In this document: positions 11,711 through 19,640 of the stretch, one piece after another
Numbering within the stretch: the first letter of the stretch is position 1
Layout: every line of letters starts with the position of its first letter
Source of the DNA: a virus
IMG/VR virus record: IMGVR_UViG_3300030419_006882
Span: 1 to 23,713 of that record
Reading direction: 5' to 3' (one strand)
DNA: 23,713 nucleotides
Position numbers and translations under genes: made by a program
Notes under the pieces: model-generated
The model's input: only the letters and a program-made list of their open reading frames with translations
Databases searched by the model: none
What the model was told of the DNA's origin: nothing

Positions 11711-12815
11711 TTAAAACTTCCTCTTCGCTAATACCCATTATACGAGATTTAATCTCTTCCATCGAAGAAAGTCTTTCTATTTCTGATGAAACATTCTTTT
11801 TGCGAATCTCAGCAATCTTAATCATTTTGTTTCGGGATTCTTCATCTTTCCAAAGTTCCACAAGATTCAAAATGGAGGCAGACTCTTGAAGTATCTTACT
11901 CATCCGCTGACTTCTTTTTTCTTTCAGCTCATTAAGTAGTTTAGTTTGTCTATTTACGCATTGGTTATATTCTGTTTGAGCTGTATTGATAGCCTCTACC
12001 AAACTCATCGCCATTCTTCTCCCTTCAGTATCTTCAGCGTTCTGATCCAATAGCTGCTGTAGTCTTTCTACGCGTCTTTGAATGTTAGAGGCGATAACTA
12101 CTTCGGCTGAGAGCACGATGTACTGGTCAACTTCTTCTTGCGTTAAATCCGATTTATCCCACGTATACCTAACAAAACTACTCTCAAACAGATCCCTATC
12201 TGTTTCAATAACATACGTGCTCATCTGATGCAAGAACCTAAAAGTATGCATGTAGCCTATAAGAGTAGATAAATTTTTCTTAACTTTAGTAGTAATTTTT
12301 TCTTTATCTATTCCATTATGGACATATTTATTTACTCGAACTAAAGCACGAGATTCTGATTTAGGAGGGGCATACCCCCCTTCCGGAATAGCTTCTTCAT
12401 TAGTGACGTCTGAATATTTTACCTTATTATCAATTGTCCCTAAAAAATCTACTAACACCTTATAACGTATATCTAAGGGGGATATACCTCTATCATCGAA
12501 AACCATGCGAGCTAATTCCATTGGCTTCATAGCGCCACAATTATTGGTAATAAACTCTTTTTGATCCTCGGTTAGTTGAGGTTTTTCTTTAGGATAATGC
12601 TTATGAGAAACTTTTGCTTTTAAGCTCCTTTCAGCTAAAAACTTTTTAACTACTCTGCCATATTTCGATCTTCCATCCCTTTTCTCTTCTGGGACATCGG
12701 GAAAAACTAACTCTATCAACTCTTTAATATAAGGAGGGTCATCGGGACGACTATTCCATTCATTAAGGAGCGCCAGTTGTTGCTCTTCAGTTAGTTCTAT
12801 GTCTTTAGAGCTCAT
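11703..12815 (-). CDS. Helix-turn-helix/coiled-coil protein; candidate small terminase
   Basis: The 370-residue protein has an N-terminal part with two similar helical DNA-binding-like segments: LTEEQQLALLNEWNSRP (~8-24) with GRSKYGRVVKKFLAER, and LTEDQKEFITNNCGAMKPME (~81-100) with SPLDIRYKVLVDFLG. From about residue 230 to the end it is almost entirely charged helix with long coiled-coil stretches. The start overlaps the sigma-like gene by 4 bases (ATGA). Small terminases combine a helix-turn-helix with an oligomerising coiled coil and lie just upstream of terL, so this is a reasonable candidate. The family is not recognised and it could instead be a transcription co-factor for the adjacent sigma-like protein. 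Confidence 0.88.
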   Translation of the reverse strand: MSSKDIELTEEQQLALLNEWNSRPDDPPYIKELIELVFPDVPEEKRDGRSKYGRVVKKFLAERSLKAKVSHKHYPKEKPQLTEDQKEFITNNCGAMKPMELARMVFDDRGISPLDIRYKVLVDFLGTIDNKVKYSDVTNEEAIPEGGYAPPKSESRALVRVNKYVHNGIDKEKITTKVKKNLSTLIGYMHTFRFLHQMSTYVIETDRDLFESSFVRYTWDKSDLTQEEVDQYIVLSAEVVIASNIQRRVERLQQLLDQNAEDTEGRRMAMSLVEAINTAQTEYNQCVNRQTKLLNELKEKRSQRMSKILQESASILNLVELWKDEESRNKMIKIAEIRKKNVSSEIERLSSMEEIKSRIMGISEEEVLNG

Positions 12816-13498
12816 AAGATTTCAATCTCTCCCTCTTCTAACATTTTTTTCGCTTTTTGAATTATAGCTTTTTTTACGTTTTTAATCTGTTTGTATCCCG
12901 GCACACGATTTTTTTCATTTGTCTTGTACCCCATTAAAGTCGCCGCTTCCTCTTCAGACATATTATCTATGTAAAGAGCTTTGTATATTCTCCACTCAAT
13001 AGGCTTTAACGTGTCTCTCATTTTAAAGTTTAACTTACGAAGAACAGAAACTACGTCCAACCCTGTATATTCAGCAGAATTTATTTCATGAGAATGATCA
13101 TCAATGGAAACCGGAAGCTTAGCATCATAAGCTTGTTTCTTGGTTCTGATCCAATTAGCAAAAAGAGGGCATGCATCTGACTGCTTTCCGTAAATATAAC
13201 ATAAATCTCCCGATTCCGCTGCCGCGCATTTCAAACAAGGCCTACAATAATTACCATAATTGTTTCTTATAAGATTTTTGATTTGGTTGGATATAATTCG
13301 ATTAATCCATGGATTAAGAGGCTTTTTAGTGTCGTACAAATGCCACTTTTTAAATATATGAATTCTTAGAATTTGGGAAACGTCATCAAAGTCCATCCAT
13401 GAAAGTGCAGTCAAGTTCCACTTAGGTTTTCTCTTTTTTATTTCCGCATCTATTTGATCTATATAATCTTCAAATTTTGGTTTCTTACGTCTGGGCAT
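12812..13498 (-). CDS. Sigma-70-like transcription factor with Cys-rich insert
   Basis: From the start at 13498 (MPRRKKPKFEDYI, 228 aa) residues ~33-82 resemble sigma region 2: WMDFDDVSQILRIHIFKKW, YDTKKPLNPWINRII and NQIKNLIRNNYG. Residues ~166-220 resemble region 4, a helix-turn-helix with MSEEEAATLMGY. Between them lies a Cys cluster (C85, C88, C91, C100, C110) likely to bind zinc, not part of ordinary sigma factors. An upstream ATG at 13609 would add 37 residues that overlap the preceding gene by 125 bases and read like out-of-frame sequence, so I prefer 13498, which leaves a 14-base overlap. It probably redirects host RNA polymerase to phage promoters, perhaps the GTGTAAT elements. Function inferred. 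Confidence 0.88.
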   Translation of the reverse strand: MPRRKKPKFEDYIDQIDAEIKKRKPKWNLTALSWMDFDDVSQILRIHIFKKWHLYDTKKPLNPWINRIISNQIKNLIRNNYGNYCRPCLKCAAAESGDLCYIYGKQSDACPLFANWIRTKKQAYDAKLPVSIDDHSHEINSAEYTGLDVVSVLRKLNFKMRDTLKPIEWRIYKALYIDNMSEEEAATLMGYKTNEKNRVPGYKQIKNVKKAIIQKAKKMLEEGEIEIL

Positions 13499-13889
13499 TA
13501 TCGGTAGACCGGGATGATGAACCAGCATCTCGAAGAAAATCTGCAGCGATAGAATCTTTCGAGTATGTGGTATCTGTTTCCCTCGTATAACCGTCATCCG
13601 ATACTCCACCAGAATCCTTACCTACAATATCTTCTATCTTGTGGATATTTGAAGGCATTGAAGATCCTATTAATTCGATGTCTAGTTTTTCCATATTTGG
13701 AGCTTGGAATTCGTCCTCTTCCACCTCTTCTTGAACCATAGCTATTGGATTATTAGGCGCTGTTTTAAACACTCTCTTGGCGGGTACTTTAGATATACTG
13801 GCAAAAGCAGACCCACATCCCCCACAATATTGAGGTTTTTTTAGAGAGTATTCTGTTCCTGAACCGCAACTAGGGCAATATACTTTCAT
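13485..13889 (-). CDS. Zinc-ribbon protein with acidic tail (134 aa)
   Basis: The N-terminus shows a four-Cys zinc ribbon (YCPSCGSG at residues 4-11 and YCGGCGSA at 21-28). The rest is low complexity and acidic (VQEEVEEDEF, ~52-61) and probably disordered. It is the first gene of the packaging block, immediately before the sigma-like factor, and overlaps it by 14 bases. The start has an AGTGTAATC element 9 bases before the ATG and no Shine-Dalgarno. A partner role in transcription is a guess based on the ribbon, the acidic tail and the neighbour. Confidence 0.85.
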   Translation of the reverse strand: MKVYCPSCGSGTEYSLKKPQYCGGCGSAFASISKVPAKRVFKTAPNNPIAMVQEEVEEDEFQAPNMEKLDIELIGSSMPSNIHKIEDIVGKDSGGVSDDGYTRETDTTYSKDSIAADFLRDAGSSSRSTDNAQT

Positions 13890-13953: not shown

Positions 13954-14229
13954 ATGAATATGGAAAATGTCAAATTCAAAACTTCGGACGGGATAGAGTA
14001 CGAATTGATATGGAAAAAACCTCACCATACTTATAACGCTGATGGTTTGTGCTACTCACCGGAAGCTGATAATCCTAAAATTCTGGTTGACCCAAAGCTT
14101 AAAAAAAGACGTAAAATGAGTACTCTTATAGAAGAGGTCACTCATGCATTCTTTTGGGATAAAACAGAAAGGGAAGTCCGAAAATTCTCATCTGTCCTTG
14201 CGGGTTTAATTAATAAGCAAATTAAATAG
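13954..14229 (+). CDS. Small metallopeptidase-like protein with degenerate HExxH
   Basis: Starting at 13954 this gives 91 residues. The open frame extends up to 13894, but that would swallow the promoter-like AGTGTATA element and add an unlikely leader, so I chose MNMENVKF (13954) or MENVKF (13960). The helix MSTLIEEVTHAFFWDKTE (~55-72) matches the zinc-helix pattern TLIHExxHAxxWDxxE of a small phage/prophage protein family, but the first His is Glu (EEVTH). The second half of the helix and a downstream Glu are kept. Catalytic zinc binding is therefore doubtful and it may be a binding protein. It overlaps the convergent PhoH gene by 8 bases. Confidence 0.8.
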   Translation: MNMENVKFKTSDGIEYELIWKKPHHTYNADGLCYSPEADNPKILVDPKLKKRRKMSTLIEEVTHAFFWDKTEREVRKFSSVLAGLINKQIK

Positions 14230-14983
14230 TATCGCAATCCGCTAATTTTGAGACAATAAATTTGGTCAACTCTGATCGAACAATATCTTCTTCGTTAAAC
14301 TCGAAAGTGTGAATACCCATATCCCTGCTCTCTTTATTATTGAAAATATCATAAAGTTTAACGAACCCTCCCCGATTTCCATTTTTTAAATCGGTTTGCA
14401 TTGGATCAGCCATAATAATACATCTTGAATACTTACCAATTCTGGTAAGAACAGTTACTATTTCCCTGAAAGAACTGTTTTGAGCTTCATCCATTAATAT
14501 AGCTTTTCCATTCCAACTCATTCCTCTCGCAAAATTAACCGGATGAATAGAGACTCTTTTTTCTTTTTGAAGCTTTTTAACCGTTTCTTCACTAAGTAGC
14601 TCATCCAGTTTATCCATGAAAGGTAAATTATAATAATGAAGTTTTTCATCTGCGTCACCGGGAAGGAACCCTAATCTAGAATCAGAACTTTCTACAGCTG
14701 AACGCATATATATAACATCTGAAACTTTTGATTGATTAAGTAAGCTTAAAGATGAATATACTGCCGTTAAAGTTTTTGAGCTCCCTGCCGGACCTTTACA
14801 TAAAATAAGACGAGTATTTTTGTCTTGAGAAATTTCAATAAAACGTTTCTGTTTTTCCGTCCAAGGTAATTCTTCTATGTAGAAATTATCCTTAGGTTTA
14901 ATTGGATCTCGTTGATGAATCTTGATCCGTCCGTCCGCAACTTCGAGAGAATCAAAATTCCCTGCGCTTTTTACTTTTGGCAT
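14222..14983 (-). CDS. phoH: PhoH-like ATPase
   Basis: A 253-residue P-loop ATPase. LPWTEKQKRFIE (39-50) precedes the Walker A GPAGSSKT (64-71). AILMDEAQN (161-169) is Walker B, and DPMQTDLKNGNRGGF (193-207) is the typical PhoH arginine-rich sensor segment. PhoH-like genes are frequent in marine phages. The family is linked to RNA metabolism or phosphate stress in bacteria, but its role in phages is not settled. The ATG is preceded by AGTGTAATTTACTATA. The gene stands alone on its strand, divergent from the MscS-like gene. Confidence 0.94.
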   Translation of the reverse strand: MPKVKSAGNFDSLEVADGRIKIHQRDPIKPKDNFYIEELPWTEKQKRFIEISQDKNTRLILCKGPAGSSKTLTAVYSSLSLLNQSKVSDVIYMRSAVESSDSRLGFLPGDADEKLHYYNLPFMDKLDELLSEETVKKLQKEKRVSIHPVNFARGMSWNGKAILMDEAQNSSFREIVTVLTRIGKYSRCIIMADPMQTDLKNGNRGGFVKLYDIFNNKESRDMGIHTFEFNEEDIVRSELTKFIVSKLADCDTI

Positions 14984-14999
14984 TATAGTAAATTACACT
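14984..14999 (-). promoter_or_regulatory. GTGTAA-type promoter element before phoH
   Basis: The minus strand has AGTGTAATTTACTATA then ATG 14983, with 10 bases after AGTGTA and no ribosome site. It forms the left half of a perfect inverted repeat TTACACT-AAATA-AGTGTAA (14993-15011). Confidence 0.6.
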
Positions 15000-15003
15000 A
15001 AAT

Positions 15004-15027
15004 AAGTGTAACACTTATAGAAAAGTT
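15004..15027 (+). promoter_or_regulatory. GTGTAA-type promoter element before the MscS-like gene
   Basis: The plus strand has AAGTGTAACACTT (15004-15016, itself a palindrome around one A) and then TATAGAAAAGTT before ATG 15028. It is the right half of the inverted pair with the phoH element, so the two divergent units share one 44-base control region. Confidence 0.55.
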
Positions 15028-15519
15028 ATGAATGAATTAACAAACGCTATTCCCGAGATTGTGAATTTAACCTCTAATATTGAAAAAGAAGAGGTAAAAG
15101 GCTTTCTGGAAAATTTAATCGGTGAATATGGGTGGCTCTTGTTTGCGGCGGTACTAACAATCTTAGCGAAAGATATGATTATGAATTTTGTTCAGGGACT
15201 GCTTGTTTTTATGGGGAATGATTTTAATAATGACGACATTATTTATATTTCCGGCCGTCAAGCGCGTATAGTTCGCGTCGGAATTCGTAATACGGTTTTT
15301 TACATGACGGACCGCAGGACTAAAATGTTGGTTCCCAACGAACAATTAAAGTTACTGACTATCGAAAAAAGATTACCTAAAAACGGGGGAGAGCCTTATC
15401 TTCCCAAAGGTAGCGATTCCAATTTCATGGGATTTGAAGAAGTCCCCATAGCTCCTTCTCCTGTACAGGTAGAAGTAGTGGAGACGCCTTCTCCTCCCTC
15501 CAAAAGAACAAGAAAATGA
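15028..15519 (+). CDS. Single-helix MscS-like (mechanosensitive channel domain) protein
   Basis: Residues ~34-62 form one hydrophobic helix (YGWLLFAAVLTILAKDM, then FVQGLLVFM) that lines up with the pore helix TM3 of MscS. Residues ~65-113 match the MscS beta domain: FNNDDIIYISGRQARIVRVG, then TVFY, and MLVPNEQL, against the family pattern F..GD.V.I.G..G.V..I..R.T....D...V.IPN..L. Full MscS proteins have about 280 residues, with two further helices upstream and a C-terminal cage. Both are missing here and the tail is Pro/Ser rich. The next gene overlaps by 4 bases (ATGA). It may form a pore or membrane ring at lysis or infection. The function is inferred. Confidence 0.85.
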   Translation: MNELTNAIPEIVNLTSNIEKEEVKGFLENLIGEYGWLLFAAVLTILAKDMIMNFVQGLLVFMGNDFNNDDIIYISGRQARIVRVGIRNTVFYMTDRRTKMLVPNEQLKLLTIEKRLPKNGGEPYLPKGSDSNFMGFEEVPIAPSPVQVEVVETPSPPSKRTRK

Positions 15520-15746
15520 AAAAAGTAATAGTATTAGCATCTATCTTTCTCATGGGATGTACTAGCGTTCCCAATCTTAAAGAAGTCGATTTAAGTATAA
15601 CAGGATTAGAAATGGAATTCTATGAAAGCCGAGAAGCCCCCATTATTTTTGACTATAACGCAGATATAGAAAGAAGGTACCAAGAAAGAAAAAATCGAGA
15701 CAAAGTCACTAATTATGGAAAATTAATGCCCATGACCAAAAAATAG
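15516..15746 (+). CDS. Small lipoprotein, spanin-like candidate (76 aa)
   Basis: The N-terminus MKKVIVLASIFLMGCTS is a lipoprotein signal with the lipobox LMGC, so Cys 15 would be lipidated and the protein held at a membrane. The mature part (~60 residues) is charged and ends in a Lys/Arg-rich tail. The ATG overlaps the MscS-like stop (ATGA), which suggests that the two are made together. Small lipoproteins coupled to an inner-membrane protein are typical of phage spanin pairs, but the partner here is an MscS-type protein and no endolysin is in sight. Spanin function is therefore a hypothesis. Confidence 0.85.
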   Translation: MKKVIVLASIFLMGCTSVPNLKEVDLSITGLEMEFYESREAPIIFDYNADIERRYQERKNRDKVTNYGKLMPMTKK

Positions 15747-15763
15747 GTGTAAAGATTATTGAA
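15745..15763 (+). promoter_or_regulatory. GTGTAA-type promoter element before the Lys-rich gene
   Basis: The plus strand reads AGGTGTAAAGATTATTGAA before ATG 15764, with 12 bases after GGTGTA. It is a variant site (GGTGTA instead of AGTGTA) and overlaps the stop of the lipoprotein gene. Confidence 0.4.
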
Positions 15764-16306
15764 ATGAAAGAAATCGATTTTACAGAGCAGATTATTAAAT
15801 GGCGCGAAGAAGAAGCTGCTAAAACAAAGAAGCAGTGGGAAAAGATAGACACTAAAGAGCTTAAACGTGACACTAAGAAAGAAAAGAAGGAGCACGAAAA
15901 AGACGCCATAGAAGATGACGAAAGCAAAATTAAAAAGCTAAAAAAAGGAAAACCGTCCGAGAAAAAGAGTGTTGAAATTCATGACATTAAGAAGGACGAG
16001 AAGTACGATAAAGCTAAAGCTGCTAAACTGAGCACTAAACAAAAAAACGATTTGCCCGATTCTGATTTCGCTTATATAGAGCCCGGTGGAAAAAAAGATT
16101 CCGAAGGAAAAACAACTCCTCGGTCATTACGTCATCTTCCTATTAATGACGCAGCGCATGTGCGAAATGCTTTAGCCAGACTCGATCAAACTGATATTAG
16201 TGAAGAGGCTAAAAAAGCGGCTCTGAAAAAAATTAAAGCCGCAGCCAAAAAATTCGGTATTAAGGTTAGTGCGTCAGCTCAAATTGACTATTCTGACTTG
16301 TACTAA
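15764..16306 (+). CDS. Lys-rich protein with conserved phage C-terminal domain
   Basis: The first ~90 residues are extremely Lys/Glu-rich and probably disordered or helical. Residues ~91-168 contain LPDSDFAYIEPGGKKD, TPRSLRHLPINDAAHVRNAL, then AKKAALKKIKAAAKKFGI. I recognise this as a domain seen in many phage and prophage proteins, often near head-maturation protease genes (the DUF6582-like pattern, named from memory). Its helical end with an AAAKKFGI motif suggests binding to DNA or to another virion protein. The gene stands alone between a GTGTAA element and a strong terminator. The function is unknown. A head-associated role is possible but not shown. Confidence 0.88.
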   Translation: MKEIDFTEQIIKWREEEAAKTKKQWEKIDTKELKRDTKKEKKEHEKDAIEDDESKIKKLKKGKPSEKKSVEIHDIKKDEKYDKAKAAKLSTKQKNDLPDSDFAYIEPGGKKDSEGKTTPRSLRHLPINDAAHVRNALARLDQTDISEEAKKAALKKIKAAAKKFGIKVSASAQIDYSDLY

Positions 16307-16331: not shown

Positions 16332-16357
16332 AAAAGCCCCGCGACGGCGGGGCTTTT
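16332..16357. terminator. Strong bidirectional intrinsic terminator
   Basis: Stem GCCCCGC (16336-16342) pairs with GCGGGGC (16347-16353) around the loop GACG, extended by AAAA/TTTT pairs on both sides to 11 bp. T-rich tracts follow on each strand. It lies between the convergent genes ending at 16306 (+) and 16377 (-), so it can stop both. Confidence 0.92.
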
Positions 16358-16376: not shown

Positions 16377-16892
16377 TTATTCTCCGGGTTCGTTGCCGTC
16401 AATAACCTTGTCTCTGTTGTTTTTAAACTCTTCGCGGATTTCTTTAATCCTTGAGTGCACTTCTTTTTGATGAGCCCTCATTGCTTCCGTCCATTCTTTG
16501 CGAGAAGCCTTCATCTGCTCCCGAAGAGCTGCTTTTTCTTCGTCGGTGGCATCTTTCCATTTGTTTTTGTCAAATCCACCTTTCATTTTTTCAGTAGCTT
16601 GTTTAAACGCTTCCTTCAACTCTTTGATTTTTGCGTCGTCTCTAATAAGCTTACCAAAAGCCTTACCTCTATGGTTGATTTTATTGCCACGTTTTTTAGC
16701 GTCTCCTCTACGCTTCTTTCTTTTATCAAAAGCGGCTTTAAGGCGTTCTTTAATCTTCTCGCGATCAATTTTATTTTCAGGACGTGGCTTCTCTGGTTTT
16801 TCCTTGTCTTTTTTAGGTCGAGCTTCCGCGGTTGATAACACTGATGCAATAACTGCGACCAGTCCGTATTTTAGTATACGAGATGTAAACAT
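16377..16892 (-). CDS. Secreted, highly charged helical protein (171 aa)
   Basis: The N-terminus MFTSRILKYGLVAVIASVLS with TAEA is a clear signal peptide (cleavage near residue 24). The mature part is rich in Lys, Glu and Arg with long predicted helices (DREKIKERLKAAFDKRKKRR, ~43-62, and EWTEAMRAHQKEVHSRIKEI, ~132-151). It contains no Cys and no recognised enzyme motif. It would act in the periplasm or outside the cell. It has its own GTGTAAA element and ends at the shared terminator. It could bind nucleic acid, envelope or phage particles. The function is unknown. Confidence 0.82.
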   Translation of the reverse strand: MFTSRILKYGLVAVIASVLSTAEARPKKDKEKPEKPRPENKIDREKIKERLKAAFDKRKKRRGDAKKRGNKINHRGKAFGKLIRDDAKIKELKEAFKQATEKMKGGFDKNKWKDATDEEKAALREQMKASRKEWTEAMRAHQKEVHSRIKEIREEFKNNRDKVIDGNEPGE

Positions 16893-19041: not shown

Positions 19042-19332
19042 ATGCCAAGTGAAAATAAAAATAAAATAACTTTTGCGGATCTGGATGGGTTCCTCAAAAT
19101 TGCTCCAATATTAGGTATATGTGTTTTAGCTTATCTTCAAACTATGTTTCCAAGTAAAGTAGAATTTGAAAAATTAGAAAATCATTTAATTCAAATGGAT
19201 AAGAAACTAACTGAAATGGCAGTAGTCAATAAGACCATAACTAATAACTCAAGTGAAATAAGAAATATCAACGACAGAGTAAGACAATTAGAAATTCAAC
19301 TAGCAAAACACGATAATCACGACAAACCATGA
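19042..19332 (+). CDS. Membrane-anchored coiled-coil protein (96 aa)
   Basis: A single hydrophobic helix (~15-34, FLKIAPILGICVLAYLQTMF) is followed by a heptad-like helix (FEKLENHLIQMDKKLTEM, then EIRNINDRVRQLEIQLAKH) from ~42 to 92. This is the size and form of holin/spanin-type phage membrane proteins. The stop overlaps the ATG of the secreted metal-binding-like gene by 4 bases (ATGA), so the two are coupled. The family is not recognised. A role in the envelope or lysis is inferred from shape alone. Confidence 0.85.
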   Translation: MPSENKNKITFADLDGFLKIAPILGICVLAYLQTMFPSKVEFEKLENHLIQMDKKLTEMAVVNKTITNNSSEIRNINDRVRQLEIQLAKHDNHDKP

Positions 19333-19640
19333 AATGGATACTACCTCTTCTTTTCGTCGCTAGTTCATATGCATCCCCCAATATAAATCCAGACATAGAA
19401 ATCAAAATACCGGGCTTGGTTTGTCAATCTTGTGCTATTGGTGTTAAAAGAGGGTTAAAGAAGACTAACCTCATTAAAGCTATAAAATTTAACGTCGAAA
19501 AAGAAATATGCCTTGTTGAATACATCAGTATAGAAATTCACCCAAGCCAAATTAAAAAAATTGTTAAAGACGCCGGGTATGAAGTGAGATCCATTAAATG
19601 GCTTAAAGACAAAAAACCAAATAGGTACAACAAGCCATGA
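19329..19640 (+). CDS. Secreted heavy-metal-associated (HMA, MerP-like) domain protein
   Basis: A signal peptide (MKWILPLLFVASSYA, cleavage near residue 15) precedes an HMA-type ferredoxin-like fold: IEIKIPGLVCQSCAIGVKRG (~23-42) with the metal-binding CxxC (Cys 32, Cys 35), then KAIKFNVEKEICLVEY and IKKIVKDAGYEVRSI (~76-90). In the family GMTCxxC binds copper, mercury or zinc; here the loop is GLVCQSC. The tail is basic. It would act in the periplasm. It is coupled on both sides: ATGA overlap with the coiled-coil gene upstream and with a small Cys-rich gene downstream. A phage-encoded secreted metal-binding domain is unusual; host transfer or a lysis-related role are both possible. Confidence 0.9.
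   Translation: MKWILPLLFVASSYASPNINPDIEIKIPGLVCQSCAIGVKRGLKKTNLIKAIKFNVEKEICLVEYISIEIHPSQIKKIVKDAGYEVRSIKWLKDKKPNRYNKP

Follow-up and report, generated by a model that had tools for sequence, protein, structure and literature searches.

What is the minimum needed for an MscS channel? The question is raised by a gene, called here MscS1, in a 23.7-kb fragment of a tailed phage (the window, by which we mean the whole stretch of DNA analysed). Its closest functional precedent is TcMscS, the miniature MscS of Trypanosoma cruzi. This cage-less heptamer with two short helices has been called a minimal functional unit among verified MscS-like channels, and it conducts about 478 pS with an unusually thin membrane part, too thin for crossing an intact bilayer (PMC12334622). 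MscS1 goes one helix beyond this: TcMscS keeps TM2 and an N helix, and in the phage protein a single membrane helix is left. The features of the locus are the following, in window positions.

14222..14983, minus strand: PhoH-like ATPase (PF02562, E=6.6e-49), divergent neighbour and synteny anchor
14984..15027, between PhoH (-) and MscS1 (+): divergent control region, with the palindrome TTACACT-N5-AGTGTAA at 14993-15011
14998, minus strand: second copy of the motif GTGTAA, serving PhoH
15006..15011, plus strand: GTGTAA promoter-like motif, 22 nt before MscS1, enriched before ORFs in the window-type genomes G001 and G002
15028..15519, plus strand: MscS1, single-helix MscS-like protein of 163 aa (PF00924; MscS fold by AlphaFold2 and Foldseek; layout common to 58 distinct full-length members)
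15028..15126, plus strand: MscS1 N-tail, residues 1-33, net charge -5, residues 20-33 being modelled within one long amphipathic helix
15127..15168, plus strand: hydrophobic stretch of 14 residues (Y34-A47) in the TM3-like helix
15169..15213, plus strand: TM3b-like amphipathic segment, residues 48-62 (KDMIMNFVQGLLVFM), near-invariant, aligned to MscS, YnaI and MSL1
15214..15369, plus strand: beta domain, residues 63-114 (PF00924), with strands predicted at 71-74, 77-84, 88-93, 98-103 and 112-114 in the AlphaFold2 model and the lowest dN within the protein
15370..15516, plus strand: Pro-rich C-tail, residues 115-163, of low model confidence, variable, missing in T4-like members of 98-109 aa
15516..15746, plus strand: partner lipoprotein of 76 aa, lipobox FLMGC (C15), in ATGA overlap with the MscS1 stop
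15764..16306, plus strand: DUF6582 protein (PF20223, E=1.9e-8), third in the stretch and preceded by a GTGTAA of its own at 15747
16332..16357, plus strand: intrinsic terminator-like hairpin 3' of the DUF6582 gene, closing the stretch

A first-pass annotation had read MscS1 as a truncated channel that keeps a TM3-like helix and the whole MscS beta domain and lacks TM1, TM2 and the C-terminal cage. This description is confirmed apart from one motif and the word 'truncated'. In a protein profile search PF00924, the MscS beta domain, matches residues 49-107 at 28.5 bits (E=1.7e-6), against a curated gathering cut-off of 20.2 bits, and the same profile run against the window DNA scores 30 bits (E=1.2e-8). 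The cut-off is also passed by three of four diverged family members, the fourth, from L183, remaining slightly under it at 17.7 bits. With phmmer, PDB sequences return weak matches to MscS and YnaI (best E=0.027) in which pore helix and beta domain are in register, the best being with H. pylori MscS and YnaI-type channels. The single helix ahead of the beta domain aligns with TM3 of MscS: K48-D49 coincides with the TM3 kink, the conserved Asn and Gly of TM3b are matched by N53 and G57, and, further on, V102-P103-N104 lies on the IPN/VPN loop. Three of the four motifs named in that early reading are literal (I74-x-G76, R87-x-T89 and V102-P103-N104), while its 'GD' is matched by position only, the residues being N68 D69 D70 (NDD in the family). 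A calcium site, suggested by a partial DxNxD pattern in NDFNNDD, was considered and dropped.

There is no room for the missing parts. Only 33 residues precede the helix of the window protein (11-43 among the members listed), with no second hydrophobic helix predicted, so that the TM1/TM2 sensor paddle is absent; likewise, where the C-terminal alpha/beta cage would be, the protein has a variable tail of some 49 residues, poorly predicted or disordered in the model.

Fold prediction leads to the same place. From a 50-row alignment AlphaFold2 models the window protein as one long helix (20-62) followed by the MscS strands (71-114), and a 103-residue member from L183 yields identical elements, both with moderate confidence (mean pLDDT 62.9 and 77.1, respectively). 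When these models are compared with the PDB by Foldseek, the leading matches are all of the MscS family, with probability 1.00 (E 2.7e-4 for the window protein, 1.5e-3 for the L183 member); the cage-less TcMscS is among them, with a TM-score of 0.36 of target. VIA-align places the model on FLYC1 (Z 8.9, rmsd 8.6, 113 aligned), H. pylori MscS (Z 7.9, rmsd 4.0, 88 aligned) and TcMscS (Z 7.4, rmsd 6.5, 93 aligned, model residues 15-115). Other Sm/SH3-like barrels such as Tudor and Hfq reach Z 6-7, as expected of a beta domain that is itself an Sm-like barrel. These Z values are modest when taken alone; it is the profile match, together with leading Foldseek matches that are solely MscS, that makes the assignment firm. 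By sequence alone, a profile search of the PDB gives a weak match (E 0.0057), and there the fold evidence carries the assignment. The architecture is very probably that of MscS TM3 and the beta domain alone. Neither result that would have refuted the first-pass annotation came about: the profile search did hit MscS, and the fold as modelled resembles MscS. MscS1 is a variant within the MscS fold in which two typical features, the sensor helices and the cage, are absent.

Is this a remnant or an intact protein? A profile-guided scan with tblastn confirmation placed relatives on 163 viral contigs, the best 80 being retained, and an MscS1 HMM collected 94 distinct stop-to-stop ORFs. All 58 distinct full-length members have the one-helix layout, and neither extra helices nor a cage were seen in any family member, be it among these 58 or among the 94 ORFs. 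Sizes range from 98 to 163 aa, with some slightly longer, and the 98-109 aa members of the L183 clade consist of one helix and the beta domain. In the 58 members 14-18 uncharged residues (median 14) separate the (Y/W)GW motif from the (K/R)(D/E) motif. Median pairwise dN is 0.075 for TM3b and the beta domain, 0.25 for the helix, 0.39 for the C-tail and 0.54 for the N-tail; dS being largely saturated for many pairs, regions are compared by dN and omega is left aside. This demonstrates a conserved layout under strong purifying selection. The word 'truncated' in the earlier reading is therefore misplaced, since in the relatives the one-helix form is the intact state. We also reject a decayed or frameshifted full-length MscS: with 58 of 58 full-length members of one-helix form, no sensor or cage sequence is left. 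Charge is distributed just as regularly. In each of the 58 members the N-tail is net negative (-1 to -7) and the 70 residues that follow are net positive (+1 to +6), which, by the positive-inside rule, would place the N-terminus outside and the C-terminus inside, the orientation of TM3 in MscS.

The phages that carry the gene include the siphophage-like group of the window, whose putative tape-measure protein is very long and whose tail-tip proteins are lambda-like according to our reading of the G001 ORFs, and T4-like phages with a gp23 capsid (G003, G008 and G012). PhoH served as an anchor: out of 80 PhoH loci, 65 have MscS1, 6 are without it and 9 end too early. Missing from 6 of 71 testable loci, the gene must be dispensable in some lineages. 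Family patterns searched in 84,980 cellular genomes hit one locus, on a 77-kb contig of a Flavobacteriales MAG which is probably a phage contig in the bin, and the idea of a recently acquired host gene is rejected on this account. Among isolated phages, tblastn of several family members against 50,697 phage records gave weak chance matches only. An mscS match in 'Acinetobacter phage MD-2021a' was set aside as it sits among host genes, and so was one in BF1-TP2, where a long ORF annotated on the opposite strand encloses it.

The lipoprotein gene that follows MscS1 had been noticed for a start codon overlapping the stop of the channel gene, and both the ATGA overlap and the lipobox (FLMG-C15) are indeed there. 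Comparative genomics extends the coupling well beyond the window. The lipoprotein family, which comes in two flavours (LKEVDxSITGLEMEFY and LEKVRFSVPAFFQVEMDYY) with one common core, L(K/E)(E/K)V..S(I/V)(T/P)(G/A)..(E)ME(F/Y)Y, adjoins MscS1 in 45 loci, including most of those of window type. It lies downstream in 37, nearly always with the 4-nt overlap, and upstream in 8 from other lineages, where the junction is mostly -4, 0 or +2 nt. Two reciprocal coupled arrangements argue for a joint function. The two genes also go missing together, in L255 and L262, where PhoH upstream and the DUF6582 gene downstream are retained. We conclude, from gene order and joint loss, that MscS1 and the lipoprotein gene overlapping it are true partners. 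It is not adjacent in the L030, L042, L055, L133, L147 and L183 types, and in the Flavobacteriales MAG 43 kb of the shared contig separate it from MscS1; with several clades in this situation, MscS1 does not need an adjacent lipoprotein everywhere.

Other genes of this neighbourhood may be recorded here. Further along the window, a conserved gene on the minus strand (16377-16892) codes for an exported, very basic helical protein of 171 aa that recalls periplasmic proteins of the Spy/CpxP type, and a gene for a TM and coiled-coil protein (19042-19332) overlaps one for an exported protein with a heavy-metal-binding-like GLVCQSC motif (19329-19640), a pair conserved across the group. Next to MscS1 in other lineages are envelope genes for signal-peptide proteins resembling outer-membrane beta-barrels (L174 4218-4898, with a weak NCBIfam match, L133 5450-6736 and L139 5501-6763). 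A C-terminal segment of roughly 55 aa (KTIGxE...YWxDRxxKG) is found just before MscS1 in L270 (4181-5017), L271 (4409-5017) and L272 (4076-4267); borne by a PAP2 phosphatase, by a NUDIX protein or alone, it looks like an exchangeable tag.

When would MscS1 be made? Between PhoH and MscS1, two copies of GTGTAA stand back to back and form the palindrome at 14993-15011. Variant forms of it are present upstream of MscS1 in most relatives. At up to three mismatches such a palindrome, alone, is not rarer than chance, and its weight comes from conservation in the relatives and from the enrichment of GTGTAA. Counting ORFs of at least 100 aa, the motif occurs 14-34 nt before 17 of 117 ORFs in G001, where 0.8 would be expected, and before 13 of 141 in G002, against 0.4 expected. 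Genes so preceded include the portal, tail genes, MscS1, DUF6582 and, in G001, the putative tape measure and PhoH; none lies in the first 40 kb of G001. Within the window the motif is at 15006, 14998(-), 15747, 16906(-), 19024 and 8937(-). GTGTAA is probably a late promoter element of these phages, and MscS1, which shares it with structural genes, would be a late gene. The window also has a sigma-factor-like gene at 12812-13609.

A late membrane protein calls to mind lysis, and the genes around MscS1 were read with this in mind. In one T4-like clade, that of L183, and in that clade only, a wall hydrolase lies near MscS1 in three of five genomes. In L183 an Amidase_2 gene overlaps the MscS1 start by 1 nt; in L270 a glucosaminidase with a TM segment lies 0.4 kb downstream; and in L271 an SLT-like transglycosylase with a signal peptide lies 0.7 kb downstream (19.9 bits, slightly under the Pfam cut-off of 21.3). 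L272 and L273 have no wall hydrolase within 1 kb. Three unrelated hydrolases in five genomes are, on a rough estimate, more than chance would bring. The endolysin of the window's group belongs to PF07486, carries a signal-like segment at its N-terminus and is encoded 11-15 kb downstream of MscS1 on the same strand (135057-135581 in G001). Amidase, glucosaminidase and SLT are absent from G001 and G002, and phage lysozyme from the six records searched. As for holins, MscS1 has no PHROG match, whether to their families or otherwise, and the T-holin profile is also absent from the records searched. On the minus strand of G001 (96469-97044), an Rz-like lipoprotein gene (phrog_456, E=2.3e-5) stands beside that of a 64-aa holin-like membrane protein, the two being likely lysis genes apart from the endolysin.

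What, then, might the protein do? By homology, and because TcMscS conducts, MscS1 probably makes a pore. We picture it as the stand-alone pore module of MscS in tailed marine phages. Its helix would insert N-out/C-in as TM3 does, and the Sm-like beta domain would bring subunits together in a ring, probably a heptamer, opening a small pore through the inner membrane of the host during the last phase of infection. Dissipation of the membrane potential, or venting of solutes, would then contribute to lysis, much as a pinholin does next to an exported endolysin, and the lipoprotein may act from the periplasmic face, localising or gating MscS1. Since the whole sensor paddle is missing, a pore that is leaky, or gated by lipids or by a partner, is more likely than classical tension gating. 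This lysis-phase pore is the reading that we rank first, tentatively and short of an even chance. The hydrolases close to MscS1 in the T4-like clade suggest it, and so does the exported endolysin of the window's group, since such an enzyme needs only a small pore, which would fit a narrow MscS ring. Against it, the endolysin of that group is not adjacent and G001 has its separate holin and spanin candidates, facts that also count against the lysis pair with the lipoprotein proposed at first pass. The wider claim, that in marine phages a one-helix MscS ring without sensor or cage forms a new class of lysis-phase pores regulated or positioned by a lipoprotein, is more speculative still, and we regard it as unlikely. 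The main rival, a rather unlikely one in our judgement, keeps the pore and reverses its purpose: a late ring would vent solutes as turgor or membrane tension rises while virions build up, preventing a premature burst. This would be in line with the MscS family as osmotic safety valve, with the late motif before MscS1 and with the lack of lysin adjacency in most lineages, and the thin, cage-less TcMscS still gates under tension (PMC12334622). Yet, TM1 and TM2 being missing, the tension sensor is largely gone from MscS1, and a valve leaves the hydrolase coupling of the T4-like clade unexplained.

The remaining explanations give the ring another partner or another task. MscS1 has kept TM3 and the interface of the beta domain, and its best sequence matches are H. 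pylori MscS and YnaI-type channels; it might, therefore, co-assemble with host MscS or YnaI and open or block them. However, strong self-conservation across siphophage-like and T4-like phages favours self-assembly over the matching of different hosts, and we hold this modifier to be improbable; the plugging of host channels, proposed early on, found no specific support and is weakened. About equally doubtful is a ring that is not a channel at all, a membrane-anchored Sm-like scaffold or a component of the virion or of injection. The beta domain does resemble Hfq and Tudor domains by fold, and MscS1 is controlled like structural genes and lies near them in several lineages, but its sequence matches are to MscS, including the pore helix with its KD..N..G pattern, and its hydrophobic run is of fixed length. 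Finally, a single N-terminal TM followed by an overlapping lipoprotein gene recalls Rz/Rz1, and the pair is conserved with swappable order, as if MscS1 in the inner membrane and the lipoprotein in the outer one fused the two membranes at lysis. Going by the charge bias the C-terminal domain is cytoplasmic, a beta domain stands where a spanin has its periplasmic C-terminal coiled coil, several clades have no adjacent lipoprotein and G001 offers a better Rz-like candidate. A two-component spanin is highly improbable, and a lysis pair of this type is contradicted by the N-out/C-in bias and by the many lineages without the adjacent gene.

Among known systems, MscS1 shares the TM3 kink helix and the Sm-like beta domain with the MscS superfamily (E. 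coli MscS, YnaI, H. pylori MscS, plant MSL1 and MSL10) and differs from it by the absence of TM1/TM2 and of the alpha/beta cage or barrel, by its 14-residue hydrophobic helix and by a phage-specific signature, NDFNNDDIIYISGRQARIVRVG. Like pinholins and class III (T4 t) holins it is a small membrane protein, presumably late, and close to lysis genes in some genomes, but it has the MscS fold and no holin-family match. The T4 t holin has a topology opposite to that predicted for MscS1. Virus-encoded MscS-like channels exist elsewhere, as in the Aureococcus anophagefferens virus (261 aa, three TMs; PMC6163359), but those are three-helix proteins of eukaryotic giant viruses, unrelated to the phage context. 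In the open-access literature we found no study of a one-helix phage MscS family, aside from a brief mention of gp51 of Paraglaciecola Antarctic GD virus 1 (PANV1, MW805361), a phage with a cultured host; as published, gp51 resembles MscS1 in that HHpred matches it to MscS and that it has one weak TM helix (PMC9239159). We take the MscS1 family for a new phage variant within the MscS superfamily, with one helix and no cage.

A natural family of small proteins, strongly conserved in many phages, makes the question of the minimal channel directly testable. If the lysis pore is true, no natural MscS channel would be smaller than MscS1, and pinholins would gain a new kind, a holin-type device whose parent channel family is not known to act in this way and which comes with a lipoprotein partner. 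If, instead, the protein is a valve, phages would have control of host turgor by a device of their own.
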